Source of the DNA: Roseateles aquatilis
Lineage (GTDB): Bacteria > Pseudomonadota > Gammaproteobacteria > Burkholderiales > Burkholderiaceae_C
DNA length: 64,000 nucleotides
Reading direction: 5' to 3'
Assembly (NCBI RefSeq): GCF_002205645.1
Contig: NZ_NIOF01000004.1
Location: 248,001-312,000, forward strand
Positions 4,843-24,950 of the stretch are shown here, one piece after another. The notes under the pieces are model-generated. The model was given only the letters and a program-made list of their open reading frames with translations. It searched no databases and was not told the DNA's origin. The position numbers and the translations under genes are program-made. Each line of letters begins with the position of its first letter. Position 1 is the stretch's first letter.

Positions 4843-6993
4843 ATGAGACAAGCCCCTCCCTCCCTGTCCCTGTTGCTGCTGGTCAGCGCCGTCTCGGCCG
4901 CCTACGCACAGCCCGTTCCCCCCGCCGCCGCCGCCAGCGCCCCCGAGGCCAACGAGCCCGCGCAGCTGGAACGCACCATCGTCACCGGCTCGCGGACCGC
5001 CAAGGCGATCGACAAGATCCCCGGCGCGATCACCGTCGTGGGCAAGGCCGAAGTGGCCCACACGCTGGCGCTGACCGAAGACGCCAGCGCCGTGTTGGCG
5101 CGCAGCGTGCCGGGGTACTCCGAGTCCTCGCAGGCGATGAGCAACACCGGCGAGACGCTGCGCGGCCGCATCGCGCTGCGCCTGTTCGACGGCGTGCCGC
5201 AGGGCTCGCCGCTGCGCGAGGGCGGCCGCAACGCGACCTTCACCGACATGGGCGTGGTCGGCCGCATCGAGGTCATCAACGGCCCGTCGGCGTCCGAGGG
5301 CGTCGGCGCGGCCGGCGGCATCATCAACTACATCTCCAAGGTGCCGACCAAGCAGGGCAACGAGTTCGAGCTGATCACCCGCTTCACGACGCAAGGCCAC
5401 GACGACAGCAGCGGCTTCAAGGTCGGCGTCAACTTCATGCGCAAGGACGAGAACTACGACCTGCTCGTGTCCGCCTCGCACATCGACCGCGGCATGACCT
5501 ACGACGCGCAGCCGCGTCGCATCGGCCTGAACACCAGCGGCTCGGTCGCCGACTCGAAGGCCAACAACCTGTTCATGAAGGCCGGCTTCGATTTCGGCAC
5601 CGACAAGAACCAGCGCATCCAGGTCTCGGCCAGCAAGTTCAAGATCGAAGGCAACAACGGCTATCGCCTGGTCGACGGCGACCGCGAGACCGGCTCGACC
5701 AACACCTCCGAGCGCGGCGCGGTCCCCGGCTCGCGCGCCGAGTTCAACGACTTCGAGCAGTTCACCGCGTCCTACCGCCACAACGACCTGTTCGGCGGCA
5801 CCTTCACCGCCGACGCCTACATGGCCAAGCAGGCGATGCGGTATCCGGCCGAAAACGGCGACGACCGCCAGGATCCGCTGATCGCGCCGCTGGGCACGTT
5901 GTGGGACCAGTCCGAGATCTACACGAAGAAAAAGGGCCTGCGCACCTCCTGGACGCGCCCCGACATCTTCGCGATCAACGGCCTGGAGTTCCGCGGCGGC
6001 GTCGACCTGGTGCGGGACGAGGCGCAGCAGCGCCTGGCGCTGACCAACCGCCTGTGGGTGCCGCCGATGCTCTACAAGAGCACCGCGCCCTACGCCCAGC
6101 TGTCCTACGACCTGGGCCCGGTGACGCTCAGCGGCGGCCTGCGCCACGAGAGCGGCGACCTCAGCGTCGACAGCTACACCACCACCTACTACCGCAAGCG
6201 CGTCGACGTGCAGGGCGGCACCTTGAGCTACTCCGCCAGCCTGCCCAACGTCGGCGCCGTGCTGCGCCTGCCCAGCGACTGGTCGGTGTTCGTCTCGATG
6301 GGCAAGGGCTTCAGCCTGCCCAACGTCGGCATCCCGCTGCGCAACATCAACTACCCCGGCCAATCGGTGGCGGGCATCCTCGACCTGCAGGCCATCATCG
6401 TCAAGAACAAGGAAGTCGGCGTGAACTGGCGCGGCCGCGACGCCAGCTTCGGCGCCTCGGTCTACGACTCCAAGTCCGACCTGGGCGTGTCGCTGGCCAT
6501 CGACCCCATCACCAACGACTTCATCATGAACCGCGCGCCGGTGCAGATCCGCGGCCTGGAAGTCTCCGGCGACACGAAGCTGACCCGCGACTGGAAGGTG
6601 TCCGCGCTGTACTCGCGCATCCTGGGCAAGACCACCTTCGTGTCGGGCGGCCCGCTGGACAAGCGCATGGGCGTGAACGACATCAACCCCGACAAGATCG
6701 GCGCCTCGGTGACCTGGAAGTTCGCGCCGGGCGGCGACGCCACGCTGGGCGCCACCCGGCTGCTGTCGCGCGACCTCAACGTCGGCAAGAGCGGCGAGGA
6801 GCACACCAAGGGCTACACGCTGTTCGACCTCAGCGCCAACTACGACCTCGGTCGCTACGGCAAGCTGACCGGCGGCATCGAGAACCTGACCAACAAGTTC
6901 TACATCCTCAGCTGGTCGCAGCTGGCGGGCTACCGGAACTACTGGTCGGGCCGCGGCCGGGTCTATTCGATCACCCACACGCTGACCTTCTAA
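4843..6993 (+). CDS. TonB-dependent outer membrane receptor
   Basis: A 716-residue beta-barrel receptor. It begins with a signal peptide (SLSLLLLVSAVSAAYA), then a Pro/Ala-rich stretch and a TonB-box-like segment (RTIVTGSRTAK), a plug domain (AITVVGKAEV ... GRIEVINGPSASEGVGAAGGIINYISK) and a long barrel ending in the C-terminal aromatic residue (ITHTLTF), as expected for Bam-dependent insertion. The plug RIEVINGPS motif is classic. The length is normal. It imports a ligand too large for porins across the outer membrane using TonB energy; iron-siderophore receptors share this shape, but the neighbours (esterase, GH127, kinase, symporter) suggest a glycoside. The 226-base leader before it has no further gene. 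Confidence 0.92.
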   Translation: MRQAPPSLSLLLLVSAVSAAYAQPVPPAAAASAPEANEPAQLERTIVTGSRTAKAIDKIPGAITVVGKAEVAHTLALTEDASAVLARSVPGYSESSQAMSNTGETLRGRIALRLFDGVPQGSPLREGGRNATFTDMGVVGRIEVINGPSASEGVGAAGGIINYISKVPTKQGNEFELITRFTTQGHDDSSGFKVGVNFMRKDENYDLLVSASHIDRGMTYDAQPRRIGLNTSGSVADSKANNLFMKAGFDFGTDKNQRIQVSASKFKIEGNNGYRLVDGDRETGSTNTSERGAVPGSRAEFNDFEQFTASYRHNDLFGGTFTADAYMAKQAMRYPAENGDDRQDPLIAPLGTLWDQSEIYTKKKGLRTSWTRPDIFAINGLEFRGGVDLVRDEAQQRLALTNRLWVPPMLYKSTAPYAQLSYDLGPVTLSGGLRHESGDLSVDSYTTTYYRKRVDVQGGTLSYSASLPNVGAVLRLPSDWSVFVSMGKGFSLPNVGIPLRNINYPGQSVAGILDLQAIIVKNKEVGVNWRGRDASFGASVYDSKSDLGVSLAIDPITNDFIMNRAPVQIRGLEVSGDTKLTRDWKVSALYSRILGKTTFVSGGPLDKRMGVNDINPDKIGASVTWKFAPGGDATLGATRLLSRDLNVGKSGEEHTKGYTLFDLSANYDLGRYGKLTGGIENLTNKFYILSWSQLAGYRNYWSGRGRVYSITHTLTF

Positions 6994-7047
6994 GTCCCGC
7001 AACCGGTCGGGGTCCGGCCGTCGCGCCGGGCCCCGCCATCCAACCCG

Positions 7048-8022
7048 ATGCTCCCCACCATGAACGCGCCCAGCGGCAACACCCTCCTCGTGGCAGGCTC
7101 TGCCAACCTCGATTTCGTCGTCCGAGCCAACCATGTGCCCGCGGCCGGCGAGACCGTGCTGGGCCGTGACTTCGCCACCTTCCCCGGCGGCAAGGGCGCG
7201 AACCAAGCGGTGGCCGCCGCGCGCGCCGGCGGCGTGCCGACGCAGATGCTGCTGGCGCTGGGCAGCGACGCCGCCGCCGCGCCGATCGAGGCCTCGCTGA
7301 GCGGTGCCGGCGTGCTGCAGCACATCGTGCGCGTGACCGACCAGGCCACCGGCAGCGCCTTCGTCTGCCTGTCCGACGCCGCGGAGAACGCCATCACCGT
7401 CGCCCCCGGCGCCAACGCCGAGCTGCTGCCCGACCACCTGCCGCCGCTGGCGGGCATCAGCCATCTGCTGCTGCAGCTGGAGACCCCGGTGCCCTCCGTC
7501 ACCGCCTACGCGCAGAGCGCCCGCGCCGCGGGCGTGACCGTGGTGCTGAACGCCGCGCCCGCGCAGGCCCTGCCGGCCGCGCTGCTGGACGCGGTGGACG
7601 TGCTGATCGTCAACGAGGGCGAGCTCGACGTGGTCGCCGGCCCGGCGGCCTCGCTGACCGAGGCGCTGGCCCGCCTGGCCGTGCCCGTCGTCGTGGTCAC
7701 GCTGGGCGCGCGCGGCTGCTGCGCGCGCAGCGGCGGCGCGTTCCACCTGCAGCCGGCCTTCCCGATCGACGCCGTCGACAGCACCGCCGCCGGCGACACC
7801 TTCTGCGGCGCCCTGGTCGCCGCGCTCAGCGGCGGCGACGACCTGCCCGCGGCGCTGCGCCGCGCCAGCGCCGCCGCCGCCCTCGCCTGCACCCGGCTGG
7901 GCGCGCAGACCAGCGTGCCCACGCGCGCCGAGGTCGATGCCTTCCTGCAGGCCCGCGCCGACATCGCGCGACACGACGACGCATTGGCCGCCTACTGCGG
8001 CCTGGCCCTGAGCCCCGCCTGA
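7048..8022 (+). CDS. rbsK: Ribokinase-like PfkB-family sugar kinase
   Basis: A 324-residue cytoplasmic kinase that would phosphorylate a pentose, most likely ribose, at C5. It has the N-terminal sugar-binding signature GSANLDFVVRANHVPAAGET and FPGGKGANQAVAAARAGG, the NxxE phosphate/Mg motif (NEGELDVVAG), and the ATP-site signature DSTAAGDTFCGALVAAL with the catalytic Asp. Two in-frame ATGs are possible, at 7048 and 7060. It ends 17 bases before the next gene. In this setting it could act on a pentose freed by the GH127 enzyme. The gene symbol is given on family resemblance; another furanose kinase specificity is possible. Confidence 0.85.
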   Translation: MLPTMNAPSGNTLLVAGSANLDFVVRANHVPAAGETVLGRDFATFPGGKGANQAVAAARAGGVPTQMLLALGSDAAAAPIEASLSGAGVLQHIVRVTDQATGSAFVCLSDAAENAITVAPGANAELLPDHLPPLAGISHLLLQLETPVPSVTAYAQSARAAGVTVVLNAAPAQALPAALLDAVDVLIVNEGELDVVAGPAASLTEALARLAVPVVVVTLGARGCCARSGGAFHLQPAFPIDAVDSTAAGDTFCGALVAALSGGDDLPAALRRASAAAALACTRLGAQTSVPTRAEVDAFLQARADIARHDDALAAYCGLALSPA

Positions 8023-14752: not shown

Positions 14753-14766
14753 TGGTGGAGCCGGCG
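14753..14766 (-). repeat. Distal attachment site (displaced tmRNA 3' end)
   Basis: TGGTGGAGCCGGCG is identical to the last 14 bases of the tmRNA gene (including its CCA end) at 24577-24590. On the left the sequence departs immediately (T versus A), on the right after the G (TCAC versus GGAA). It marks the far end of the inserted element and presumably is the original chromosomal 3' fragment of ssrA. Confidence 0.85.
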
Positions 14767-14953
14767 TCACCTAAAAACAACGCGGAAAGCCGCATGAATC
14801 CTAGCGATCACAGTTGTCCATTGGGCAAGTTGTGCAGTCACCTGTGCGGTCGAATCAGTCCCTTCGCGCCATTGCGATTCGCGCCAGCTGGTTCGTCCAT
14901 CTGGCCGCACGGGGCTGCACGCGGACCTGCCAAGTGCGACGGCCGCCTCGATC

Positions 14954-15403
14954 TCAGCCCAGACCTCGCCGGCAGGCAACACAGACGTCGACGCCGCCGC
15001 GCCCGCGCCGCGTCAGCGCGCTGTGATGGCTCCAGAACGCCCTCAACCCTGCGAGATGCCTCACCTGACTCAGTTGCGGGGGGATCCGCTGCATGCGGAG
15101 TTGCGCTTGGGAAGGTAGCCGCTGCGGAACGTACAGAATGGTCAGGACTTGCCGCTCCAGCTCGCCAACAGCCTTCATGGCCTCTTGAACTTGCATGGCG
15201 TCGTCGCCGGTCAGCGACTCAAGGGGGAGTCGACGAGCCTCAAGTGCCTCACCTCCCGGAGCGCGGTATCGCCCCTCGGCGCTGCCACAGCGCGCAGCGC
15301 GCCAGCGATCCATTGCCCACCGACCATAGCGGTGAAGGAGCTGGTCGGCCTGTTGAAGGTCCGAGGGGATTTCCGCGTAGATCTGCAGACGCTCTTTGCT
15401 CAA
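14954..15403 (-). CDS. Phage antiterminator-like / late regulator protein
   Basis: A 149-residue protein if the TTG at 15403 is used; that start has GGAGAG about six bases upstream and gives MSKERLQIYAEIP. The frame stays open back to GTG codons at 15448 and 15586. The middle (LLHRYGRWAMDRWRAARCGS, then AEGRYRAPGG) resembles the conserved YGRW ... CGSAEGRYR pattern of phage proteins annotated as Q-like antiterminators, and the C-terminal part (AVGELERQVLTILYVPQRLP ... IPPQLSQVRHLAGLRAFW) looks like a sigma-type helix-turn-helix. It is the last gene before the distal att site. A role in turning on late genes of the element or its helper is an inference. Confidence 0.6.
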   Translation of the reverse strand: MSKERLQIYAEIPSDLQQADQLLHRYGRWAMDRWRAARCGSAEGRYRAPGGEALEARRLPLESLTGDDAMQVQEAMKAVGELERQVLTILYVPQRLPSQAQLRMQRIPPQLSQVRHLAGLRAFWSHHSALTRRGRGGVDVCVACRRGLG

Positions 15404-15747
15404 ACCGCTCTCCGGTCTAGCCGTTGGTGGGGACTCTTCGTCAAACACTGTAGCCGCCGAACGCGACACATGGAACGCACGCGCGTCGACCGGCGCGCGT
15501 TCATGGGGAGTTGGTCGATCGACTGAAGCGCGAGTGCCCTGCCACGGCCAATGGGGCGCTCCGTCGTTTCGACGTCGGCCCGACACCGCCCGCTCGGCCG
15601 CGCTGCATCGGAGGCTGAGATCGAGCGCCTGGGCGTCAACGCGCGATCCGCGCGGGAAATCTCTGAAGCGCGGCTCCGGGCCAACCCTCTGCCGCTCGGC
15701 AGCCGCGGGCGATAGGCTGCGAGCCCATCAACCAGAGGGAGAGCGAG

Positions 15748-15951
15748 ATGCACGGAAAGTGCCCGAAGTGCGAGACGTTGATCACGAACCTGCGCATGGA
15801 CACGCTGCAGGCCGGGGTCGGCATGTTTCCGAAGAAGACCTGGAATGCCGTGACCTACTGCTGCCCTAGCTGCAGCACCGTTCTCGGAGCCGGGATCGAC
15901 CCTGTGGCCCTGAAGACCGACGAGGTGCTGAAGGGGCTGGGTAGGGGCTGA
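15748..15951 (+). CDS. Small zinc-ribbon-like protein of unknown function
   Basis: A 67-residue protein with two CxxC knuckles (CPKCETL near the N-terminus and CCPSCSTVLG in the middle), suggesting one structural zinc. A good ribosome-binding site (GAGGGAG) lies before the ATG. It is the only credible plus-strand gene in the element and faces the broken minus-strand gene next to it, so it could be a late-acquired cargo (moron) gene. The function is unknown; Zn-ribbon proteins of this size often bind nucleic acid or other proteins. Confidence 0.65.
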   Translation: MHGKCPKCETLITNLRMDTLQAGVGMFPKKTWNAVTYCCPSCSTVLGAGIDPVALKTDEVLKGLGRG

Positions 15952-16238
15952 CGGCCATGCCGGCGCGCTCGGTGCGCCAGCCGCGCTGGCCGCCTCGGCG
16001 ATCGGCCAGGATCTCCGTCACCCCGTACTCCTCAAGGAGCTTGCGCGCCAGCTCGCGCAGGTTGTTGATCGTCAGCGGCAGGCTGTCGCGGCTGAGGAAC
16101 GCGTGCACGAAGGCCCGGCCGGTCACCCAGCAGGTTCACCGTCGCGACGGCGCTGTAGGGCGCGCGGCGCTCGTAGTCGCCGACCTGCACCAGGCGGCGC
16201 AGCGTCAGCTCGGTGGGTTCGGCGTGCCAGATGGACAT
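15866..16238 (-). pseudogene. Frameshifted small phage-type gene
   Basis: The gene starts well: AGGAGGTGGGCC directly before the ATG at 16238, encoding MSIWHAEPTELTLRRLVQVG ... SAVATVNLLGD. Near 16120-16130 the coherent protein sense moves to another frame (AFVHAFLSRDSLPLTINNLR, then ELARKLLEEYGVTEILADRRG), consistent with one extra C/G in the run GGCCCGGCCGG. Joined, the two parts make an unbroken amphipathic protein of about 90-120 residues whose end overlaps the opposite-strand zinc-ribbon gene. I do not recognise the family. Either a real inactivating indel or a sequencing error in a GC run would explain it. Confidence 0.6.
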
Positions 16239-16249
16239 GGCCCACCTCC

Positions 16250-16555
16250 TCAGGGTTGCGGCGCGCCGGCGGCGGGCCAGGCCTTGACCAGCGCCGCGTG
16301 GCGCGCGCGGCAGACCGCGGCAGCGCCCTCGCGCTGCCGGACGATCTCCAGCAGCTCGGCCAGCAGCGCCTCGCCCGGCGGGTAGTCGGGCCCGGCGCCG
16401 CACGGCGCGGCCAGGTCAGCGGGCCGCGGCGGGATCTGGCGCGCGACCGGCCCCGGCGTCGCGCAGCCGATCAACCAGCACGGCGGGCACAGCAACGCTG
16501 CCCAGCGGGACAGCCGACGCGCCGTCGGCGCAGGCGACAGGGGTCTGGAGCGCAT
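16250..16555 (-). CDS. Outer-membrane spanin-like lipoprotein (LysC/Rz1 type)
   Basis: A 101-residue protein with a positively charged start (MRSRPLSPAPTARRLSRW), a hydrophobic segment and a lipobox ending in LIGC, then a Pro-rich mature N-terminus (ATPGPVARQIPPRP) and a helical tail (LLAELLEIVRQREGAAAVCR). This is the plan of LysC-like Rz1 lipoproteins, which link to an inner-membrane partner to disrupt the outer membrane at the end of phage lysis. As in phage Rz/Rz1 pairs it overlaps another reading frame (16416-16796). It keeps a full frame, whereas its presumed partner seems damaged. Confidence 0.6.
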   Translation of the reverse strand: MRSRPLSPAPTARRLSRWAALLCPPCWLIGCATPGPVARQIPPRPADLAAPCGAGPDYPPGEALLAELLEIVRQREGAAAVCRARHAALVKAWPAAGAPQP

Positions 16556-16796
16556 GGTCGGCCTCCTTGGAGATGGTGCTGCGCGCGGCGCGGATCTGCG
16601 CGAGCTGCATCTGGTAGCCCGCCCAAGCGTCGTTGCCGGTGCGGACATCGGCGGCCAGCTTTGCGCGCATCCTGCTCGGTCTGAAGGCGGTCCTACAGCT
16701 GGTCGCACTCCTCGAGGACGCCGCAGGCGATCCAGCCGCCGCCGGCGCCCAACGCCAGCGCGATGGTGACCGCGCCCAGGGGCGCGGTGCCGCCAC
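16416..16796 (-). pseudogene. Damaged LysB/Rz-like inner-membrane spanin remnant
   Basis: The frame 16416-16796 contains a plausible helical middle (MRAKLAADVRTGNDAWAGYQ ... QLAQIRAARSTISKEADHAL) that overlaps the Rz1-like gene in a different frame, as in LysB/LysC pairs. The expected N-terminal membrane helix is instead found in another frame (VTIALALGAGGGWIACGVLE), which ends with TAG near 16693. A frameshift around 16690 would join the two. I therefore treat it as a broken or mis-sequenced gene. No endolysin or holin is recognised beside it apart from the membrane protein upstream. Confidence 0.45.
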
Positions 16797-16812
16797 GAGA
16801 CGGCAACCATCT

Positions 16813-17268
16813 CTAGCCGATCAGTCGAAAGACGGCGAACGCTGCCAGGACCACGCCACCCCCGAAGGTGATGAAGCCCAGCAGCGACAGCACCACCGCC
16901 AACCTCCCCAGCAGGTCGCCTTGCGCTGCCTTGCGCCGATTCTCTGGCTCGATCGATTGAAAGTGCAGCGACTGGGCGAGGTACCGCGCCGCATGTGCGA
17001 GGCCGCCAAGAAGCGCCGCCACACCGAAGGCGATCAGTGCCATCGCGAGTCCCGACGCGGCCGAGGGAAGCTTGCCATCCTTGACCAACGTGCCGATGAA
17101 ACCGAGCAGCACGATAACTGCGCCACCGCTGATCAGGATGAGGGTATTGAGTGCATCCTTCCCCGTCTCGAACGTAGCCTTCAGCATCTCGAGGCGATAC
17201 CCCATCCGGGCCTCGTAGTGCGCCTGTGGGCGCCAGCCCTCTTGTTCACGATCTGCGCTCATTTCCAT
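16813..17268 (-). CDS. Three-helix membrane protein, possible holin-like role
   Basis: A 151-residue protein with a polar N-terminus (about 40 residues) and three predicted membrane helices: LNTLILISGGAVIVLLGFIG, GLAMALIAFGVAALLGGLAH and LAVVLSLLGFITFGGGVVLA. I do not recognise a named family. Its position directly upstream of spanin-like genes, and its helix count, would suit a holin, but the charged cytoplasmic stretch between helices 2 and 3 and the long N-terminus are unlike small holins. The ATG at 17268 is the only good start. Confidence 0.6.
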   Translation of the reverse strand: MEMSADREQEGWRPQAHYEARMGYRLEMLKATFETGKDALNTLILISGGAVIVLLGFIGTLVKDGKLPSAASGLAMALIAFGVAALLGGLAHAARYLAQSLHFQSIEPENRRKAAQGDLLGRLAVVLSLLGFITFGGGVVLAAFAVFRLIG

Positions 17269-17624
17269 GCGACCTCACAACGTCTTCGGGAGGCCATTCT
17301 TTTACAGAATCCGGTGCGCGCCGAAAATCTCGGCGGCCGTAAAAAAACCCGTGCGTGCGGGACTAGGCGGTCCAGGGCTCAGCCGCCCCAGGGATTGAGC
17401 CCCCCTACCCCCGATCGGCCGACCGTTCGAGGGTTCGACGATGGGTCTGCGGGGCGCCCAGCGACCCCAGGTTGGCCGATCGCATCAGGGTTGTGGCGTC
17501 GGCGGAGGCAGGTCCTTGACGAGCATGGCGGCCGTCCAGGTGAGGTGCGGTCATGTGGCGCGGAAAGGGAACGTCGGGATGACCGCAACGCCCCTCAGGG
17601 CGCCCCGATTCTGTCGGCTGTTGT
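17269..17624. other. Gap between capsid gene and membrane-protein gene
   Basis: No gene is convincing here. One short minus-strand frame (17379-17588) is Arg/Pro-rich without recognisable features. The region holds a T-tract hairpin (17341-17362) that could end transcription of the capsid gene. In a complete phage this is where protease, portal or terminase genes would be expected; none remains. Confidence 0.5.
17341..17362 (-). terminator. Possible terminator behind the capsid gene
   Basis: On the minus strand CCCG and CGGG pair around a short loop and are followed directly by seven T residues. The stem is short (four pairs), so the call is tentative, but the T-run and the position downstream of the capsid gene fit. 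Confidence 0.35.
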
Positions 17625-19106
17625 TCAGCGCGCGCCCAGCACCACGAATGGCGAGACGGTGCTCGTGCCGTCGCGCAGCGTGGTCGGCGCTGCGTCCTCC
17701 GGCATGCCGTCGAGCCGGAGTGTCAGCTTGAAGGCGATCTCATCGGTGTCGAAGAAGCGCGAGCTGTCACGGATCAGTCGCACATCGGATCGCATGGTGA
17801 TCAGGTAGCGCATCGGGTCCGCCAACACGATGTCGCCCTTGGCCGAGAGCGAACTGCATGCATCCGTCACCAGCGCCGGCCGACCGAAGATCCGCAGGTT
17901 GCCTTCGGCATCCGTTGTCACGGCGGGGATGTAGCTACCGCCGACGTTCTCCGTGCCGGCCACGTTCTTCACGGTGAAGCTCAAGCCATACAGCGCGGGG
18001 ATCAGCGTCGGGTGCACGTACCAGACACTGCGCTTGAAGCTCACCGGATCCAGGCGTCCCACCATCTTGGCCAAGTTCTGCAGCAGCAGCGTGTTGGAGG
18101 TCTGCCCACTTTCCTTGGCGACCTCGATCGCCGCGCCCGAGTTGATCACGCCCAATGCGGTGCCGCTGCCGTTGCCCGCGAGGAACGCGTAGTCCAGCCC
18201 GGAAGCGACCGCCGCTGTCATGGCCTGGGTCAGCGCCTGGTCGAAATTGGGAGCGTCTTCCGCCAACTCGCTCGATACCACGCAGAAGACGTTCGCCTTC
18301 TTCGCCGAGGCCTGGACGCGGCGGGCCCGCGGCTTTTGCTGCACGAGTTCTTCGGCCTCTGCGCCCCACTCCAGCTTCAGCCCAGCGCGCTTGCCGCCGG
18401 TGCGGTCGGTGCTCTCGAAGCCTGCGATGATCGCGTCGCCGCTGGTGATCGGGACGACGTTCGCGAGCGGCCGGAAGACCTCGATCTGCAGCGCGGCGTC
18501 CATCATCTGCTGGACGAAGGCGGACGGGACGAGGAAGCCGGCCGAGGCCCCTTCGCCCGTCGTCGACCCGGCGTAGGAGTTGCGCACCATCAGGCGTTGA
18601 TCGTTGCCCGACGCCACGGCAAGCGCGAACTCTCCCAGCGTCTGGAAGCGACCGCCGTAGGGATCTCGCGCGGCAGCGAACATTTCGGCGAAACGGCGAG
18701 GCGGCTCGACGCCGCGAGACGTCAACATCGTGCGTTGACCCGGTCGCCGGCCAGAGCCTTCATTCGGCGAATCCGAAGCGTTCGCTGCGGTCCGCCGAGG
18801 CGTCGGACGGGTGAGCAGTGCTTGGATGGTACCGGCCTGCTCATCCAGTTGCTCGACCTCATCGGTGCGCCGCTGGATGGCTCGACGCTCGTCCGCGGTC
18901 AGCTCACGTTGAGCTGCATCCGCTTGGTCCAAAACGCTCTGAGACCGCGCGTTCAAGCGTTCCTGTCGAATGCGGATCGAATCGAGTTCCTCCTGAAGCT
19001 CTTCGGGGGAGCGACCATCCGCTCGGATGCCGACGCGCGCTACCAGGGATTGGACGCGGAAAACGCGTCGATTCCATTCGACGCGGTGATGGTTCATGGG
19101 GGTCAT
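17625..19106 (-). CDS. HK97-fold phage major capsid protein with delta/scaffold domain
   Basis: A 493-residue capsid protein. Residues about 25-95 are a charged coiled-coil (SPEELQEELDSIRIRQERLN ... LTADERRAIQRRTDEVEQLD), the usual delta domain. The HK97 core begins near residue 150 and contains AGFLVPSAFVQQMMDAALQI, EIFRPLAN-type text, FCVVSSELAEDAPNFDQAL, FLAGNGSGTALGVI and WYVHPTLIPALYGL, all family hallmarks. The ATG at 19106 is preceded by AAAGGA. Normal HK97-type phages encode a prohead protease that removes the delta domain, but no protease, portal or terminase is seen in this element, so assembly would need a helper phage or would be defective. Confidence 0.92.
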   Translation of the reverse strand: MTPMNHHRVEWNRRVFRVQSLVARVGIRADGRSPEELQEELDSIRIRQERLNARSQSVLDQADAAQRELTADERRAIQRRTDEVEQLDEQAGTIQALLTRPTPRRTAANASDSPNEGSGRRPGQRTMLTSRGVEPPRRFAEMFAAARDPYGGRFQTLGEFALAVASGNDQRLMVRNSYAGSTTGEGASAGFLVPSAFVQQMMDAALQIEVFRPLANVVPITSGDAIIAGFESTDRTGGKRAGLKLEWGAEAEELVQQKPRARRVQASAKKANVFCVVSSELAEDAPNFDQALTQAMTAAVASGLDYAFLAGNGSGTALGVINSGAAIEVAKESGQTSNTLLLQNLAKMVGRLDPVSFKRSVWYVHPTLIPALYGLSFTVKNVAGTENVGGSYIPAVTTDAEGNLRIFGRPALVTDACSSLSAKGDIVLADPMRYLITMRSDVRLIRDSSRFFDTDEIAFKLTLRLDGMPEDAAPTTLRDGTSTVSPFVVLGAR

Positions 19107-19335
19107 GATGATCCTTTGGCGAGCGCAGGTGCGGCAAAGGAGCGCGCAGCACCCGCGAAACGTTGGGGCCGCGACGGTGTCGTGCGGCAACGGGCCGGCG
19201 ATGTGGGTGCTTGCGCGAGGCGTTTGGCGGAGATCGGTCACGGGGCCGCCGACGTGGGGCGGGCATGACGGAGCGTCGAACGGGGCGGAAGCGAGTGCCG
19301 GACAAATTTCATTCTGGCGATCTTTGATTGCGACG

Positions 19336-19737
19336 TCAAACCGGCACACCGATCTCGCAGCTGCACAGCTGCACGGAGGTCGTGTCGTCTGCCATTCTGA
19401 GGACGATCGACCTCAGCCTCGGATCGACCAACACCTGCAGACGCGCTCCGCGCATGGCCGCCATCGAGATCGCTTCGAGCACATCGTCCCCAAGGGTCTC
19501 AAGGGCCTTCTGTGCGATTGGGGCGACAGCCTCGCACACCTCTGCAGCCGCATCGTCGATCTTCGGCAAGGCTCGGACATGCTGGTCGCCAGGTTCCCAG
19601 AGCCCGATGGCTGTGACTGGCGAGACGGTGATCACCGCGATTGCGTCTTCTCCAGCGCCCATCCGGGCCAGCCAAGTCGCAACTGCGTGCAGCAGGTTGG
19701 GCTCCAACTCAATCCCGGTTTGATCTTCATGTTCCAT
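19336..19737 (-). CDS. Unknown element protein upstream of the capsid gene
   Basis: A 133-residue acidic protein (MEHEDQTGIELEPNLLHAVA ...) with no motif I recognise and no membrane segment. The ATG at 19737 has GAGGGA six bases upstream; a GTG at 19755 overlapping the previous stop is an alternative. It lies between the replication protein and the capsid gene on the same strand, separated from the capsid start by about 230 bases without a clear gene. A role in replication or capsid control is a guess only. Confidence 0.65.
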   Translation of the reverse strand: MEHEDQTGIELEPNLLHAVATWLARMGAGEDAIAVITVSPVTAIGLWEPGDQHVRALPKIDDAAAEVCEAVAPIAQKALETLGDDVLEAISMAAMRGARLQVLVDPRLRSIVLRMADDTTSVQLCSCEIGVPV

Positions 19738-19751
19738 TCGATTCCCTCGAT

Positions 19752-20636
19752 TCACGTGGCGGTGCGTTCAAGCACCACCGGTTGATCGTCCGGCCCTCTG
19801 GACTCGGCAATGACGTTCGACAACTGCGCGCGGCGTGCTTGCAGCCCTCTGGTCGTGAGCAGGTACTCGTTGCCCTGAAACATCCAGAGCTTCAGCCAGT
19901 CTTCCTTGACAGCGCGACGGAACACCGCGCGCCAGTCGACATAGGTCTTCGGCTTCTCCGGCGATGCAGGGTCCGGCGTGTAGCGATCCTTGAACACGTC
20001 CCACGCGAGCGCGAGGAACTCAGGTGGCAGGCCTACGCGCTCCGACCAGTTGAAAATCGCGTCATCACCGGGAACGGCCTTTCTTCCTGCCGCCGCTTCG
20101 CCGGTCAGCCACTCGGCGAGAGTCGTCTCCTCGATGCGTCGACGCGGGGCGTGTTCATCACGACGAGAAACCCCCCTCTCCTCTGGTTCCTTACGGTTCC
20201 TTCTGGTTCGGGTAGCACCGGTGCCACCCGTCGGCTGCATGGGTGCCACCCCTTCGTTGCATGGGTGCAACCCGTCGGGCGCATTCGCTTCGCTCGGAGG
20301 GGTAGCACCGGTGCCACCCGTAGGGGTTGCGCCGGTGCCATCCGTCTCCCGCAATGTGGTGAGTCGATCGAAGTGCAGCCGGTAATGCGGCGCGAGGCCG
20401 GGGGCCCCTCCAGCAGCATTCGCCACGATGCTCAAGACCTGGCACTCCAACAGCGTCCGGACACATCGCCGCGCTTGGTCTCTGCTGATACCGACACGCT
20501 CGGCGATCGATGCCAGCGAGAGGTTCAACTGGCCCGTCCGTTCGTTGAGCGCATCGGCAAGGACCACGGCCGTCAGCTTCACTGTTGGTGGCTTCAATGA
20601 AGAAGCGATGACGGCAGTGACCGCGCGAATGCTCAT
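19752..20636 (-). CDS. Lambda O-like replication initiator with embedded origin repeats
   Basis: A 294-residue protein. Residues 1-85 form a winged helix-turn-helix (LKPPTVKLTAVVLADALNER ... LSLASIAERVGISRDQARRC). Residues about 98-150 are a low-complexity linker rich in GGTGATP, encoded by iteron-like DNA repeats. The C-terminal part (residues 170-270, with TYVDWRAVFRRAVKEDWLKL) resembles the helicase-loading end of phage O/DnaT-like proteins. An N-terminal DNA-binding domain, an origin within the linker-coding DNA and a C-terminal partner domain is the arrangement known for lambda O. It overlaps its neighbours by four bases upstream. This implies the element can replicate itself after excision. 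Confidence 0.65.
   Translation of the reverse strand: MSIRAVTAVIASSLKPPTVKLTAVVLADALNERTGQLNLSLASIAERVGISRDQARRCVRTLLECQVLSIVANAAGGAPGLAPHYRLHFDRLTTLRETDGTGATPTGGTGATPPSEANAPDGLHPCNEGVAPMQPTGGTGATRTRRNRKEPEERGVSRRDEHAPRRRIEETTLAEWLTGEAAAGRKAVPGDDAIFNWSERVGLPPEFLALAWDVFKDRYTPDPASPEKPKTYVDWRAVFRRAVKEDWLKLWMFQGNEYLLTTRGLQARRAQLSNVIAESRGPDDQPVVLERTAT
20210..20345. repeat. Iteron-like repeats inside the replication gene (candidate origin)
   Basis: A 22-bp sequence occurs exactly twice, at 20210-20231 and 20300-20321. Each copy is a near-palindrome with the perfect core GCACCGGTGC. A degenerate third copy (GCGCCGGTGCC) lies at about 20329-20339, and shorter variants (CATGGGTGCCACCC, CATGGGTGCAACCC) sit between. 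The repeats are in the linker-coding part of the O-like gene, so they may serve as initiator binding sites as well as coding sequence. Confidence 0.65.
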
Positions 20637-20857
20637 GCGGCGCGCTCAAGGGCCTTCTGCAACGCACGACACCACCCCCTGAGGCGCGGCGCGTCACCGG
20701 CGCGGAAAACCCGCTCGAGTGCTTCATGGAGCAGGTCCGCTGGCGCCATGCCTTCGCGCAGCAGGAGTAACAGTTGAGCAGCCTCCTCCTGTCCCTCAAC
20801 GACGGACAGTGCCCCGTGCGAGAGGCTGCCGGGTCGAGGCAGATCGGGGGCGCTCAT
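20633..20857 (-). CDS. Small unknown protein of the replication operon
   Basis: A 74-residue, mostly helical protein (MSAPDLPRPGSLSHGALSVV ... LLLLLREGMAPADLLHEALE). It overlaps the upstream DNA-binding gene and the downstream O-like gene by four bases each, so it is translationally coupled to both. No family is recognised. Size and position would suit a replication accessory or regulatory protein. Confidence 0.6.
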   Translation of the reverse strand: MSAPDLPRPGSLSHGALSVVEGQEEAAQLLLLLREGMAPADLLHEALERVFRAGDAPRLRGWCRALQKALERAA

Positions 20858-21171
20858 TGCGTACCGCCTTCGGCCCGCTTCGCCGCGGCCGCGAGCGAAG
20901 CCATCTTGGCGCGCCGGAGGAGCGCATCACCCTGGGCCGGCTCGCGTGCCGTCTGCTGAGCGCGCTGGATGAGGAACTGACGAACGTCCGAAAGCAGCCA
21001 GCGAGTGCAGCGATGGGCGCGGAAAACAGGCTGCGGCGCTTCACCTCTGCTCACGAGCGTCTGCCAACTGGTGATCGAAATGCCGCATGCAGCTGCAGCG
21101 GATGGCCCGTCGATCATGGCGACATCCGCCAGGGCTGGGTGAATCTCCGGGTTTTTTGTCTGGTCGGTCAT
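20854..21171 (-). CDS. AlpA/MerR-like helix-turn-helix protein
   Basis: A 105-residue protein whose centre (ACGISITSWQTLVSRGEAPQ ... CTRWLLSDVRQFLIQR) reads as a winged helix of the AlpA/excisionase group: a recognition helix followed by the characteristic 'RGEAPQP ... RW..SDVR.FL' pattern. Such proteins act as excisionases or activators of int in P4-like and PICI satellites. It overlaps the next gene by four bases. The Ala/Arg/Gln-rich tail has no clear role. A control function over excision or the operon is likely but inferred. Confidence 0.7.
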   Translation of the reverse strand: MTDQTKNPEIHPALADVAMIDGPSAAAACGISITSWQTLVSRGEAPQPVFRAHRCTRWLLSDVRQFLIQRAQQTAREPAQGDALLRRAKMASLAAAAKRAEGGTQ

Positions 21172-21224
21172 TTCTGGCCCTCAAGAGTGAGGACCGCATG
21201 GTTGCGCCAGTGCGTCAGTCGACC

Positions 21225-21845
21225 CTAGACAGAAATTCCCCCGCGCTTCGCCCGTCGAGCGGCTCTGCCGATCGACGCCTCCGGCGAAGGCACGCCACAT
21301 GCGACAAGGACCTCGTCAGCCAGATGCTCCGCGTCCTCGACCGACGACAGGCTCTTCTTCAGCTCCGTGACGACGGCGCGAAGCAGCTCGTCCCGCGCGC
21401 GCATTGACGGCCTGCCGCGGTTGGCCTTCTGCCGCCGCAGCGATTCGCATGCGCTCTTCAGGAGATCGCCAATCTCCGAGTCCGACCCGGCCGCAAGGGC
21501 CTCTCGCCACGTCCGCCCGATCTTGAGCGCGGCGTGCGAGACAGCGGGCTCGGCATACCAGGCAGGCAGACGGGCCAGGCGCCCATCGGCACGGGCTGCC
21601 CCCGGGGCGGCCGCTGCCGCCTCCAACCAGCGGATGATCGCGGCCCGTTCCGCCATGCTGGCGCGAGCCATCGCGTGAGCTCGGAACTGGGCAAGCGGCG
21701 CCCGAAGCCAAGCACCAAAGGCCTGCGCGTCAATGCACGAGTCGCGCAGCACCACCGATAGATCGGGGAGCTGCTGCACCAGCTCACCATCGGTCCATAC
21801 CAGGGGCCCCGAAGGTCCCAGGGCGTCGCTCTTCGACTTGGTCAT
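21225..21845 (-). CDS. Unknown element protein, 206 residues
   Basis: Starts at an ATG overlapping the HNH gene's stop by four bases. The sequence is helical and Ala/Arg-rich (LPDLSVVLRDSCIDAQAFGA ... GRTWREALAAGSDSEIGDLL ... RAVVTELKKSLSSVEDAEHL), without Cys/His clusters, membrane segments or a recognised domain. The end is strongly basic (GRAARRAKRGG), which would suit contact with DNA. Its conserved coupling to the HNH nuclease suggests that they work together, perhaps in DNA processing or packaging; that is an inference. Confidence 0.6.
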   Translation of the reverse strand: MTKSKSDALGPSGPLVWTDGELVQQLPDLSVVLRDSCIDAQAFGAWLRAPLAQFRAHAMARASMAERAAIIRWLEAAAAAPGAARADGRLARLPAWYAEPAVSHAALKIGRTWREALAAGSDSEIGDLLKSACESLRRQKANRGRPSMRARDELLRAVVTELKKSLSSVEDAEHLADEVLVACGVPSPEASIGRAARRAKRGGISV

Positions 21846-22399
21846 CGTCTGTGTCCCCAGCGACGCCGTGATTGACCGACCGCCCAGACGAACTCGATCG
21901 CCGTCCGATCTCCCTTGCGGAGATTGCAGGTAGCGCACGCGGCGACCAAGTTCGGCATGCCATCACTACCACCTAGTGCCCGCGGCATCTGATGCTCCAC
22001 GTGCCATGACGAAGACTCGAGTTTCAGGTCGCTGCCGCAGTAGTGGCAACGGCCGCCGGACCGCTCATGCACATGGCGACGCCGGCGAGAGACTCTTGGA
22101 CCTGCTGGCGTAGCCGGCGGCGGCACCGCGGCCAGCTCAGCATCGGACCACAGCCGCGGCTGGTACCACAACGGCAACTCTCCTGCATCGTCCCTGGTCC
22201 GCAGCACGCGCCGCGCGGTCGCCAGCACATCGCTCTTGGACTCAGCGATGCTGACCACGCGACCGGCCGAAGGCTCGATCACCATGAACCTAACGGCATG
22301 GAGCCCCCCGGACACAATCGCCTGCGTGGCAAGTTCGAAGCGCCCGCTTCCGAACGGGCCGCCGAACAAGGGCTTGCGAAGGATGTGACTTGCCGTCAT
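21842..22399 (-). CDS. HNH endonuclease domain protein
   Basis: A 185-residue protein. The C-terminal half is a zinc-associated HNH nuclease: RCHYCGSDLKLE, then WHVEHQMPRALGGSDGMPNL and AACATCNLRKGDR, so two CxxC pairs and the catalytic His and Asn positions are present. The N-terminal 100 residues are unrecognised. In HK97-type phages HNH nucleases support terminase-dependent DNA packaging; in other islands they nick DNA or act in defence. It is coupled by ATGA overlaps to genes on both sides. Confidence 0.85.
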   Translation of the reverse strand: MTASHILRKPLFGGPFGSGRFELATQAIVSGGLHAVRFMVIEPSAGRVVSIAESKSDVLATARRVLRTRDDAGELPLWYQPRLWSDAELAAVPPPATPAGPRVSRRRRHVHERSGGRCHYCGSDLKLESSSWHVEHQMPRALGGSDGMPNLVAACATCNLRKGDRTAIEFVWAVGQSRRRWGHRR

Positions 22400-22647
22400 G
22401 GCGTCCCCGCGTTTCTATGGCGCCATTCCGCGAGCTTCGATCTGAAGTTTCCGCCAGGCAGGTCGTCCCAGTTGCTGACCCCGGCACGTGCAATCCATCC
22501 GAGTTCTCGGGCTTGCAGGTAGGCACGCACCGTGGACCACATCGGCCCGCTGAATTGTTGAGCGCGCTCTTCTTGGGCTCGCTCCCAACCGTCCCACACG
22601 TGCGAGAGGTCCAGGTCCTGAATTCGCTTTGTCCGGGGCTTATCCAT
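22396..22647 (-). CDS. Small unknown element protein
   Basis: An 83-residue protein (MDKPRTKRIQDLDLSHVWDG ... NWDDLPGGNFRSKLAEWRHR), rich in Trp and charged residues. It overlaps the upstream gene by eight bases and the HNH gene by four, so it is a member of the same operon. No family is recognised, and there are no transmembrane or metal-binding motifs. Confidence 0.6.
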   Translation of the reverse strand: MDKPRTKRIQDLDLSHVWDGWERAQEERAQQFSGPMWSTVRAYLQARELGWIARAGVSNWDDLPGGNFRSKLAEWRHRNAGTP

Positions 22648-22996
22648 GGTGCACCTCAGGCTTCGTCGCGGATCGCTGCGCCTCGCGCAGCCGCTGCTCG
22701 GCCAGACTGAGATCCCCGAAGACGAGCCGCTTGAGGTCGTCAAGCTCGCGACCGTGGTTCGCCTCTGGGGCCTCGTCGACGCACGCCGAGATCGCATATC
22801 CCAGCTGCTGAATGCGGATCAGCATCCCGCACCAAGCCTTGCCGGCCTCGTCGAGCTTCGCAGCATCTACCTCTCGCAGAAGTACCGCGGCGAGGGCACT
22901 GACCTCGTATGAAGCCTCGAACGCCAGGTGGGCGTGCTGAAACGAGCTCGTGCGATCAGGTTCCACCGCAGCAGCGGGTAAAGTTCCGTCAGCCAT
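22640..22996 (-). CDS. Unknown element protein, first gene of the operon after the integrase
   Basis: A 118-residue, largely helical and acidic protein (FEASYEVSALAAVLLREVDA ... LDDLKRLVFGDLSLAEQRLR). It is separated from the integrase stop by about 100 bases, which is where the operon promoter could lie. The 3' end overlaps the next gene. I do not recognise the family. Confidence 0.6.
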   Translation of the reverse strand: MADGTLPAAAVEPDRTSSFQHAHLAFEASYEVSALAAVLLREVDAAKLDEAGKAWCGMLIRIQQLGYAISACVDEAPEANHGRELDDLKRLVFGDLSLAEQRLREAQRSATKPEVHHG

Positions 22997-23098
22997 GATT
23001 CACCTCTCCATCAGGTGGCCGTGGTCAGGAGGCCAGAGGTGCTGCAACACCAACTGGCCTCCGCCTATGCCGGCTGCCGGCCGGCGCGGGTTCGCGGG

Positions 23099-24403
23099 TC
23101 AGGCCCGCCGACTCTGCATGTCGATCACATCGCCGCCCTCGCGCAGGCGCTCGAGGTATTCAGCCCAGCGCTGCAGCATGTCGCGGCGCTGTTCCAGGTA
23201 CTGCGTCCGGTTGTAGGCCCGCCCGAGCGCGTCGCCAACGGCATGTGCGAGCTGGGCCTCGATGATCTTGTCCTCGACACCGAGACGCTCTGCGATCAAC
23301 GTGCGCGCCGTGGCGCGGAAACCGTGAGCGGTCATGTCGTCGTTGCTGTAGCCCATGCGCCGCAGCGCACTGCGCACGGTGTTCTCGGACATGCAGCGTT
23401 GCCGCGTCGTCAGGGCCGGAAAGACGAACTTCCCGCCGCCTGTGAGTAGCTGCAGCTCGCGCAGCACGTCGACGGCCCGGGGCGCCAGCGGCACCAGATG
23501 CGGGGGGCCCGACGCCTTGTCTACCTTGAGGCGCTTCATCACCGTGCCGGGCACAGTCAGCAGCGCCTTGTCGAGGTCCACCCAGGCCCATTCCATCTGC
23601 CGTAGCTCGCCGGGCCGAAGCAACAGCAGCGGCGTCAACGCGAGCGCCGCCTTGGTGACCGGGTGCCCGCTGTAGGCGGCCATGTCCCGCAGCAGCGCCG
23701 CCACCTCTGCCGGCGCGATCAGTGCGGCGTGATGCCTCGTTTGGACCGGCTGCAGCGCATCGCGCAGATCCTGAGCGGGGTTCCGACCACAGACGCCCGT
23801 GGCGACGCCGTAGCGAAACACCTGGCTGCAGGCGTCCTTGAGGCGGTGTGCCGTCTCGATCGCCCCGCGAGCCTCGACCCTGCGGAGCGCCTGCAGCAGT
23901 TCGGGCGGATCGATGTCGGCGATCGGGCGTCGGCCGAGCGTCGGGAACGCATCGTTCGCAAGCCGCGTGAGCGTGCGATCGGCGTGGTTGGCGCTGACCT
24001 TGACCTGGTGCACGTTCGCCAGCCACTCACGCGCAACGAACTCGAACGACCCGGGCAGAGGTTTCCCTTCAGCGGCAAGCTTGGCACGCTGCCGCACGGC
24101 CGTTGCCGCGTCCTTGTCGGCGCGTTTAGCCTCGACGGGATCTCGCCCAGCGGCAAGCCCTTGGCGGGCCTCGTCGCGCTTCTGTCGAGCCAACGCGAGC
24201 GTGGTGTCCGGATAGGTGCCGAGGCTGAGACGGTTGGCCCTGGCGCCCACCCAGTACCTCAGGCGCCACCATCCTGCCCCAGAGGGTTGTGCCTCCAGCG
24301 TCAGGCCGGCGCCATCGTTGACGGTCACGGCCTTCCCGGCCGCCGCCGCGCGCTTCAGCGCAGCCTCGATACCCTTCACGCTCAACAGATTCACGCCCGG
24401 CAT
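23099..24403 (-). CDS. int: Tyrosine-recombinase integrase of the ssrA element
   Basis: A 434-residue P4-type integrase. The N-terminal arm-binding domain with LSLGTYPDTTLALARQKRDE is typical, followed by a SAM-like core-binding domain and the catalytic domain: Arg in LLRPGELRQMEW, HGFRATART with the His-x-x-Arg box, the second His in [15 protein letters not shown] and the nucleophile Tyr in YNRTQYLEQR. All catalytic residues are therefore present. The ATG at 24403 has GAGGAG nine bases upstream; a TTG at 24412 is less likely. It starts about 175 bases from the tmRNA end and reads away from it, the normal arrangement for tRNA/tmRNA-directed integrases. Confidence 0.95.
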   Translation of the reverse strand: MPGVNLLSVKGIEAALKRAAAAGKAVTVNDGAGLTLEAQPSGAGWWRLRYWVGARANRLSLGTYPDTTLALARQKRDEARQGLAAGRDPVEAKRADKDAATAVRQRAKLAAEGKPLPGSFEFVAREWLANVHQVKVSANHADRTLTRLANDAFPTLGRRPIADIDPPELLQALRRVEARGAIETAHRLKDACSQVFRYGVATGVCGRNPAQDLRDALQPVQTRHHAALIAPAEVAALLRDMAAYSGHPVTKAALALTPLLLLRPGELRQMEWAWVDLDKALLTVPGTVMKRLKVDKASGPPHLVPLAPRAVDVLRELQLLTGGGKFVFPALTTRQRCMSENTVRSALRRMGYSNDDMTAHGFRATARTLIAERLGVEDKIIEAQLAHAVGDALGRAYNRTQYLEQRRDMLQRWAEYLERLREGGDVIDMQSRRA

Positions 24404-24404
24404 A

Positions 24405-24463
24405 CCGCACAACTCCTCACGTCGCGACGCCCGGACTGGGCGGTTGTGCGGATTGTTGTGCGG
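24405..24463. promoter_or_regulatory. Candidate integrase arm-binding sites
   Basis: The octamer TTGTGCGG occurs at 24444-24451 and 24456-24463 (12-base period) and inverted at 24405-24412, overlapping the integrase start region. Clustered short repeats between att and int are typical arm sites and could also let the integrase repress its own gene. The assignment rests on position and repetition only. Confidence 0.4.
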
Positions 24464-24508
24464 TGGATCAGTGTGTGCAAGCGTTCAAATGCGGCCCTTG
24501 CAAACATG

Positions 24509-24546
24509 AAAAAAGGCCCAAGCCGTTGATTTGCTTGGGCCTTTTA
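24509..24546 (-). terminator. Rho-independent terminator downstream of ssrA
   Basis: A 13-base perfect stem (AAAAGGCCCAAGC / GCTTGGGCCTTTT) around a nine-base loop, with a T-run on the minus strand. It lies 30 bases beyond the tmRNA 3' end. Because it is inside the element boundary, it was brought in by the element together with its copy of the att site. Confidence 0.8.
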
Positions 24547-24576
24547 CGCCTTGGCGGTCCTAGCAGGACCTGAAAA

Positions 24577-24590
24577 TGGTGGAGCCGGCG
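24577..24590 (-). repeat. Proximal attachment site within the tmRNA 3' end
   Basis: The last 14 bases of the tmRNA gene, matching 14753-14766 exactly. Insertion here restores a complete tmRNA acceptor end, so ssrA function is kept. Confidence 0.85.
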
Positions 24591-24950
24591 GGAATTGAAC
24601 CCGCGTCCGCAAGCCTTCATCGGGCAGTTCTACATGCTTAGCTCTCTGGTTTGGATCTCGCCTGGCCGGTCGCGCAGGAGCACGCTACCGGACGGGCCAG
24701 CACCCTAAATCTCGCCATCATCCAAGGTGCACGAATGACAGCCAGCCAATGTGAATAACCTCTCTGTGTCAGGACTTGCGTCCCGTCACCCGGCCCATTG
24801 GCCTACCGGTGAGAGGTCCGCGGGGTTTAAGCCGCGAGAGCGTACGTTTGATCGTTCGCAGTTGGTTTGTTCCAGATGGATTTACGAGCTGACTGGTGCT
24901 CGGCATGCCCTACTCCGAATCCGTACCCACGTCGAAACCAGGTCGGCCCC
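24577..24950 (-). ncRNA. ssrA: Transfer-messenger RNA (tmRNA)
   Basis: The 374-base gene reads on the minus strand from GGGGCCGACCTGGTTTCGAC (5' end, 24950) to the T-arm and acceptor GGTTCAATTCCCGCCGGCTC followed by CACCA (24577). The 5' GGGGCCGAC.. and 3' ..CGGCTCCACCA ends pair as a tRNA-like acceptor. The internal tag frame encodes ANDQTYALAA and a TAA stop. tmRNA with SmpB rescues stalled ribosomes and tags the product for proteolysis. The gene is intact even though an element has integrated at its 3' end. Confidence 0.95.

Follow-up and report, generated by a model that had tools for sequence, protein, structure and literature searches.

We describe here an island of 9,838 bp integrated at ssrA in Roseateles aquatilis, which its gene content marks as probably a phage satellite resembling the phage-inducible chromosomal islands (PICIs). 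The island lies at positions 14753 to 24590 of the stretch of DNA analysed (64,000 nucleotides; contig NZ_NIOF01000004.1, positions 248,001 to 312,000), hereafter the window. Between its attachment (att) copies, ten minus-strand genes, all co-oriented, run from an integrase through to a single HK97-type capsid gene. The plan itself is not new in kind, as published PICIs precede it. What is possibly new is the series of islands with PF05065 capsids in alpha- and betaproteobacteria, together with a capsid lineage confined to islands.

An integrated unit with its own integrase and initiator

The island carries an exact 14-bp repeat at each end, TGGTGGAGCCGGCG. One copy (24577-24590) forms the 3′ 14 nt of ssrA, the tmRNA gene that served as integration target (24577..24950, minus strand, identified with ARAGORN), and the distal copy lies at 14753..14766. 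A repeat search found just these two exact occurrences in the window, at 14753 and 24577, in agreement with the 9.8-kb unit proposed in the preliminary description of this DNA. In addition, when 14.4 kb of sequence was resampled 500 times under a first-order Markov model, no 14-mer from the 3′ 40 nt of ssrA ever appeared. In the genus mate G579 (L141) about 660 bp separate the left flank from ssrA, which leaves insufficient room for the island there. For the other 14 of the 15 genus mates, the 1.5 kb examined beside ssrA (0.4 kb for L147) did not contain the left flank; thus, other DNA may occupy the site. In this genus, ssrA may be an integration hot spot (loci L137-L151).

The tyrosine integrase (23099..24412, minus strand, as for all ten genes) carries the Arm-DNA-bind_3, Phage_int_M and Phage_integrase domains (Pfam 5.9e-35; phrog_1 1.1e-54) and is 47-50% identical to the integrases of islands L074, L041 and L049. 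An HNH endonuclease is encoded at 21842..22399 (Pfam 9.6e-11; PHROG 1.4e-19), and a lambda-O-like replication initiator at 19752..20636. Five PHROG families (1.1e-6 to 0.0079) support the initiator, among them phrog_4617 (1.1e-6), phrog_678 (1.1e-5), phrog_270 (2.2e-5) and phrog_391 (4.8e-5). The integrase, O-like initiator, HNH and capsid assignments first made from the sequence alone are therefore backed by Pfam and PHROG matches. The supposed AlpA-like regulator fared less evenly. This helix-turn-helix (HTH), excisionase-like and weakly AlpA-like protein (20854..21171) matches a DNA-binding PHROG (phrog_597, 7.6e-7), excisionase/regulator families (0.004-0.014) and an L074 protein (5.6e-5), but the Pfam scan, which included AlpA PF05930, gave no match. 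The genes are closely packed, neighbours overlapping by 4 bp at five of the nine junctions and by 11 bp at another, and GC content at codon position 3 exceeds that at position 2 in 10 of 10 genes.

Five 22-nt iterons, with start-to-start distances of 22, 22, 46 and 24, lie within the initiator gene (20215..20350) and constitute a putative lambda-type origin. By eye, they sit where the gene codes for a repetitive linker. The lambda O gene likewise contains its origin iterons, an arrangement like that of the window. As the iterons lie within the replication gene, and not just 3′ of it as in PICIs, we name the element PICI-like rather than a PICI. It does share traits with Gram-negative PICIs, namely a one-direction gene order with int first, its own integrase, att repeats and a size near 9.5 kb; unidirectional transcription with int first is the published trait (PMC6092414), and the same source gives as another trait an att site that no prophage uses.

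The capsid gene is the only firm virion gene

The ten genes gave no convincing Pfam or PHROG match to a portal, large-terminase, protease or tail family, and neither did nine left-end open reading frames (ORFs), a wider ORF set or a tblastn panel, which upholds the initial impression of an integrase-bearing unit with its own initiator and no other firm virion gene than the capsid. The window island thus holds no recognised set of portal, large terminase (TerL) and tail genes, as an intact temperate phage would. A search of the whole 6.39-Mb genome for the portal families PF04860 and PF05136 and the large-terminase families PF03354 and PF03237 gave nothing at E <= 0.001, and a resident phage of those types is thus not apparent. 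P4-like satellites carry the P4 alpha primase-helicase and P4 capsid factors; families of that kind were absent from the island-protein matches in the general scans, no search aimed at P4 proteins having been made.

The capsid gene (17625..19106, most likely starting at the ATG at 19106) encodes an HK97-type major capsid protein of 493 aa (PF05065 1.1e-29; phrog_10 1.2e-32). When this protein was combined with nine relatives from viral contigs into a profile, the profile matched HK97-fold capsids of the PDB. The predicted model has a mean predicted local distance difference test score (pLDDT) of 54, but helices 30-60 and 67-95 reach about 90, and this helical N-terminal region resembles in the model the delta (scaffold) domain, as expected of a delta region. 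With a lone HK97-fold capsid, a delta-like N-terminus and no recognised protease or portal, the island has the sequence-level traits of capsid-homologue satellites. The Foldseek list obtained from this model (pLDDT 54, template modelling scores below 0.25) was not used as evidence; it ranked 7rwz, the SaPIbov5 procapsid, fourth, which counts for little given the poor model.

A search for close relatives of the capsid returned one weak viral contig and three plasmid records, and against 33 phage records identity was under 60% throughout, and at most about 30% among the 20 listed. A short-pattern search for relatives found no genome contig.

Single-capsid islands recur

We searched 399 genomes of the family twice (apparently the same set), once with the window capsid and once with a profile of four island capsids. 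Three and four candidates, respectively, were scored per genome, so capsids can be missed, and the profile, being built from islands, biases the island share upward. Fifty-six capsid loci were found, of which 38 have a nearby portal; five of these portal calls (G448, G373, G466, G688, G559) are lambda-type portals first picked by eye, three then confirmed by PHROGs and the other two found by tblastn. Thirteen loci are single-capsid islands with an intact capsid ORF: that of the window (genome G000) and those of G673, G484, G439, G522, G321, G592, G463, G347, G561, G457, G583 and G400. The remaining five comprise one cut by a contig end (G371), one decayed (G093) and three not judgeable (G654, G525, G633). 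In the decayed relative (L110) the capsid match contains in-frame stops, and transposase-like ORFs and an integrase can be seen by eye.

A search of 300 genomes of the order yielded 11 capsid loci outside the family, ten with a nearby portal and one (G200) at a contig edge. A further genome scan was seeded with island capsids, and phage relatives with other motifs could be missed by it. Here 33 of 41 loci lacked a portal, TerL or tape-measure match in the stretch examined (four of them, L162, L163, L174 and L176, already counted as islands), seven had a portal and one (L196) was not judgeable. PF04860 portals occur in 13 of the 33 island genomes; by contig number and position, a reading rather than proof, none falls inside an island.

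In total, 29 islands, the window's included, are bounded by att repeats at tRNA or tmRNA genes and measure 7,047-10,695 bp (median 9,233). Of the 15 islands made up of the 13, L074 and the cut G371 locus, 10 are flanked by direct repeats, as are 19 of 25 additional tRNA-linked loci from named genomes. The repeats are 32-81 bp long in 14 islands and 14-18 bp in 15; when six of the latter were resampled, a chance 14-mer appeared in 0-2 of 200 runs. The targets are tmRNA and the tRNAs for Val, Ser, Arg, Thr, Asn, Gly, Leu, Cys, Ala, Lys, Phe and Trp. The islands repeat the plan of the window island with different integrases and replicons.

Gene content of the sister islands

The 13 islands hold 226 ORFs of >= 120 aa outside the integrase, the capsid and one transposase; 85 were dropped for unusual composition and 141 scanned. 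Pfam matches included Toprim, DUF5906/DUF3987 primase-type, AAA_25, RadC, HNH, trypsin-like and IstB domains, one Terminase_4 and one DUF1441. Among the 25 listed of the 34 matching families none was of portal, large-terminase or tail type, and the tblastn panel likewise recognised no large terminase in the islands. PHROGs identified a small terminase subunit in at least six of the 13 (L029, L107, L129, L121, L074 and, partially, L131), a lower bound, as these scans covered chosen proteins. In four loci the capsid is fused to a prohead protease (L074:6070-7989, L131:8051-10030, L133:8478-10574 and L124:3898-6060, the last three by PHROGs). From 19 further islands, 129 ORFs of >= 150 aa were kept and 42 dropped. 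Pfam matched 18 families in these 129 ORFs, with no portal or large terminase; L187 and L190, each with one tail-type domain, are not clean. The loci L173, L179, L181, L188 and L193 are cut by contig ends.

Portal-bearing prophages reside alongside islands in G522, G321, G457, G583 and G400. A resident prophage sharing the capsid type of the island was considered as helper; in G457, G583 and G400 the prophage stretches gave no island-capsid match at 1e-5. The small terminase of L129 matches sequence in each of the five prophage stretches at 34-38%, those of other genomes as well as that of L129 itself. With the two lambda-like prophages resident in its own genome G400 (L157/L158) it shares 36-38%, and the island capsid has no match there. 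L129 and the G400 prophages are a possible helper pair, with similar matches existing in other genomes too.

Cargo varies among the islands. By eye, L040 carries a trypsin-like protease gene (6382-7233; one Trypsin_2 match), and the wider island set contains one zeta-toxin match and one protein with matches to PD-T4-10-like defence.

A possibly island-only capsid group and selection on an island capsid

We next placed the capsids in trees. In a 56-row tree 5 changes suffice for the island label, whereas shuffling gives 13.3 and none of 500 shuffles reached so low a count; an eight-island group has support of 99/95. In an 81-row tree with 44 island rows, 5 changes are needed against 26.8 in shuffles (again 0 of 500 as low). 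At least four of the five changes fall on well-supported branches, and the islands form four clusters, gains and losses not being distinguished in this count. Thirty-seven of the 44 island rows make up one group (SH-aLRT 97; midpoint root, quick search) that contains no recognised phage capsid in the 81-row tree. By record title, this group spans Burkholderiales, Nitrosovibrio, Lysobacterales, other gammaproteobacteria and many alphaproteobacteria. One of its capsids is 21.6-27.3% identical to phage records among the 20 listed of 155.

The island pair L041/L049 (genomes G439 and G522), integrated at tRNA-Arg genes of different anticodon, allowed selection to be estimated. The two capsids are 95% identical in protein sequence, the RepA proteins 89%, the primases 78% and the integrases 70%. 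The capsid is the most constrained of these four proteins, with a nonsynonymous divergence (dN) of 0.037 and a synonymous divergence (dS) of 0.78. In this one pair, the substitution pattern shows strong purifying selection on the capsid, which speaks against decay as a general account of such islands.

The nearest islands

The closest island in plan is L040 (G484), in which the integrase (30% identical to that of the window), a gene we call g206 (33-34%) and the capsid (28% over 312 aa) keep their order. The window gene g206 (21225..21845) has no assigned function; its homologues are in L040 (7e-12) and, weakly, in a prophage of G425, and none was found in viral contigs. A single-sequence fold prediction of g206 was uninformative (pLDDT 43) and was dropped. 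In each of the two islands a gene for replication initiation lies between g206 and the capsid, and both of these initiation genes match phrog_270. L040 differs in its unrelated initiator with a DnaC-like loader, its tRNA-Ser site and its capsid, which falls inside the island-only clade. One account of these sequences is that capsid genes were exchanged on a related backbone, the alternative being convergence. In G425, the g206-like gene lies in the early region of the prophage, adjoining an O-like gene, which suggests that the island backbone derives from phage.

The island capsid nearest to that of the window (32%) is found in L029 (G673). This island differs in carrying Toprim and DUF5906-type genes (by eye, from the pooled scan), an HNH gene and a small terminase, and in its tRNA-Val site. 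At L029:9132-12059 the HNH, the small terminase, a 96-aa ORF and the capsid follow one another, a row that corresponds to the phage head-module order minus the large terminase, portal and protease.

We also considered whether a small gene preceding the capsid is conserved among the islands, an idea that was dropped, as the small genes of the window and L040 matched no others at 1e-3.

Comparison with published satellites

Published reports describe three satellites, SaPIbov5, PmCI172 and EcCICFT073, that carry a capsid homologue without a full head module (PMC6092414, PMC6893505). Consequently, the idea that the layout departs from PICI plans had to be given up, EcCICFT073 running int-AlpA-primase-...-capsid-decoration and the other two having their capsid homologues.

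EcCICFT073, from E. coli, resembles the window island in having int first and co-oriented genes, with a regulator and a replication gene followed by one capsid gene; portal and terminase are not annotated, and the annotated genes span about 11 kb. In contrast, its capsid is of the lambda gpE type (PF03864) and is followed by a gpD-type decoration protein, whereas the window has PF05065 and no recognised decoration gene. It also has a true PF05930 AlpA and a D5/DUF5906-type replication gene where the window has an O-like initiator, and the two integrases are 25% identical. Lambda plaques did not return when the capsid gene of EcCICFT073 was deleted (PMC6092414, PMC6893505). Capsid-forming PICIs (cf-PICIs) encode a whole head module (portal, TerL, protease, capsid and connectors) and borrow tails; no such complete module was recognised in the window island. 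They are satellites that form their own capsid, as our reading of the window would have it (PMC11389934, PMC10803314), but they average 14 kb (PMC10803314), against 9.8 kb with the capsid alone. PICIs in general have a mean of 9.5 kb and are reported there from many Firmicutes and Gammaproteobacteria. In the open-licence literature searched, we found no report of such islands in beta- or alphaproteobacteria.

SaPIbov5 and its capsid homologue Ccm are like the window in combining a satellite with one HK97-fold capsid homologue that has a helical N-terminus, with no protease identified (PMC8569155, PMC5052747). This likeness is by description. SaPIbov5 differs in its host, Staphylococcus, which belongs to another phylum, and in that Ccm functions only alongside the helper capsid protein. 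According to these reports, Ccm fills the pentamers of small isometric procapsids (PMC8569155). PmCI172, a Pasteurella PICI, also has one capsid homologue, again a likeness by description (PMC6092414). Its induction yields small heads of about 37-39 nm (PMC6092414), and PMC6893505 leaves the mechanism undetermined. Whether the lone capsid homologues of Gram-negative satellites redirect capsid size is a live question in the same source (PMC6893505).

A model for the island and its alternatives

Our model suggests that, when a helper phage grows, the island would excise and replicate from its own origin. The capsid protein, with its built-in delta-like scaffold region, would join or replace the helper capsid protein, and the shell would thereby fit a unit of about 10 kb, as with the Ccm of SaPIbov5. 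The portal, maturation protease, packaging motor, tail and most of the lysis functions would come from the helper. In sister islands, the small terminase perhaps aims the helper motor at island DNA; as no small terminase was recognised in the window island, it would need another route, such as a helper cos or pac site. Taken as a single step, size redirection by the island capsid seems to us slightly short of an even chance on this analysis. Between the options raised in the preliminary description, the satellite fits better than the decayed prophage, and size redirection and capsid swapping are steps that we infer.

Several observations weigh against the satellite reading. The window capsid falls outside the 37-row group and groups with that of L029 beside prophage capsids (support for the pair is 88/39 in the 56-row tree, and the 81-row tree does not resolve it), and the selection result comes from outside the lineage of the window. 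Neither a small terminase nor cos was recognised in the window island. Besides the window genome and G484, g206 occurs in one other of the 399 genomes, in the G425 prophage (8e-4). The window and L040 initiators do not align, and their proteins at the HTH position do not match. Shared order is thus shown for three genes only, and we cut back an earlier view of full gene-order conservation to the integrase, g206 and capsid; the recurrence of single-capsid islands holds, that of the exact order does not extend further. This lowers our confidence in the satellite. In addition, Ccm is unable to substitute for the helper capsid protein (PMC5052747), so full capsid swapping has no precedent there. 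Finally, a larger phage could have left behind an Rz1/LysC-like gene and the irregular frames at 15.8-16.8 kb.

The position of the window capsid beside prophage capsids and the Rz1/LysC-like gene lend weight to a decayed prophage, a temperate phage stripped of the genes for head, packaging and tail in which the integrase, early genes, capsid and Rz1-like gene survived by chance. We consider this unlikely but worth taking seriously, given also the early-region position of the g206-like gene in G425 and the decay of the sister locus L110. In contrast, the core ORFs are intact with six of nine junctions overlapping, 13 intact single-capsid islands occur in 399 genomes, the 29 att-bounded islands keep to a narrow size range, purifying selection acts on the capsid of another pair (L041/L049), and the published EcCICFT073 has an equal plan. 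The capsid could instead act as an interference factor only, poisoning or shrinking helper heads, with island DNA travelling in ordinary helper capsids if packaged. Ccm strongly blocks its own helper (PMC5052747), and EcCICFT073 carries a capsid gene, yet its packaging appears to use full-size lambda capsids (PMC6092414, PMC6893505). However, the islands keep to a narrow size range and at least six of 13 carry a small terminase, both of which point to dedicated packaging, and interference and packaging can coexist. We regard interference alone as improbable; being a variant of the satellite, it overlaps with that reading in likelihood. An HK97-fold protein without other head genes might also be a domesticated encapsulin-like nanocompartment that an integrative element carries and that has nothing to do with phage parasitism. 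Encapsulins have a short shell protein without a delta region and an adjacent cargo gene. The window protein matches Phage_capsid PF05065 and major head protein PHROGs and has 493 aa with a long helical N-terminal region, sister islands carry small terminases, and what the islands have in common (integrases, HTH proteins, primases, small terminases) does not point to a shared cargo, which judges cargo indirectly. We rejected this explanation as very improbable.

More broadly, we hypothesize a distinct and widespread class of satellites of about 9 kb with one HK97 capsid and often a small terminase. In this class, one capsid lineage of alpha-, beta- and gammaproteobacteria would be island-only, and related backbones (window, L040) would carry capsids of different lineages, perhaps matching their helpers. 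This proposal is tentative, and we put it below even likelihood; the window/L040 backbone match rests on the integrase and g206, which lowered our estimate. A satellite-only capsid lineage, if true, would mean that satellites have long maintained and transmitted structural genes of their own. The dozens of compact single-capsid islands, some beside portal-bearing prophages, are natural test material, and a lone capsid gene should not count as a prophage.

Other features of the window island

Between the integrase and HNH genes lie two small genes, one for a 118-aa protein without a family match (22640..22996) and one for a protein of about 80 aa (22396..22650) without a Pfam match, for which a longer ORF in the same frame has a weak PHROG match (0.11). 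A 74-aa protein (20633..20857) has no family match, and a 139-aa protein encoded upstream of the capsid gene (19336..19755) has no convincing one.

Three further ORFs were noted toward the distal att copy. A 151-aa ORF (16813..17268, minus strand) without a family appears by eye to encode a membrane protein. The Rz1/LysC-like gene (16250..16555, minus strand) matches Pfam LysC at 6.1e-5, under the family cut-off, and phrog_2425 at 4.9e-5, and is a lysis remnant or an accessory gene. On the opposite strand, a 67-aa Cys-rich ORF (15748..15951, plus strand) has weak matches; one to terminase gpA (0.0055) was treated as noise. By eye, the frames around the Rz1/LysC-like gene (15748-16810) resemble broken pieces of phage genes, and together with that gene they may be remnants of an older phage.

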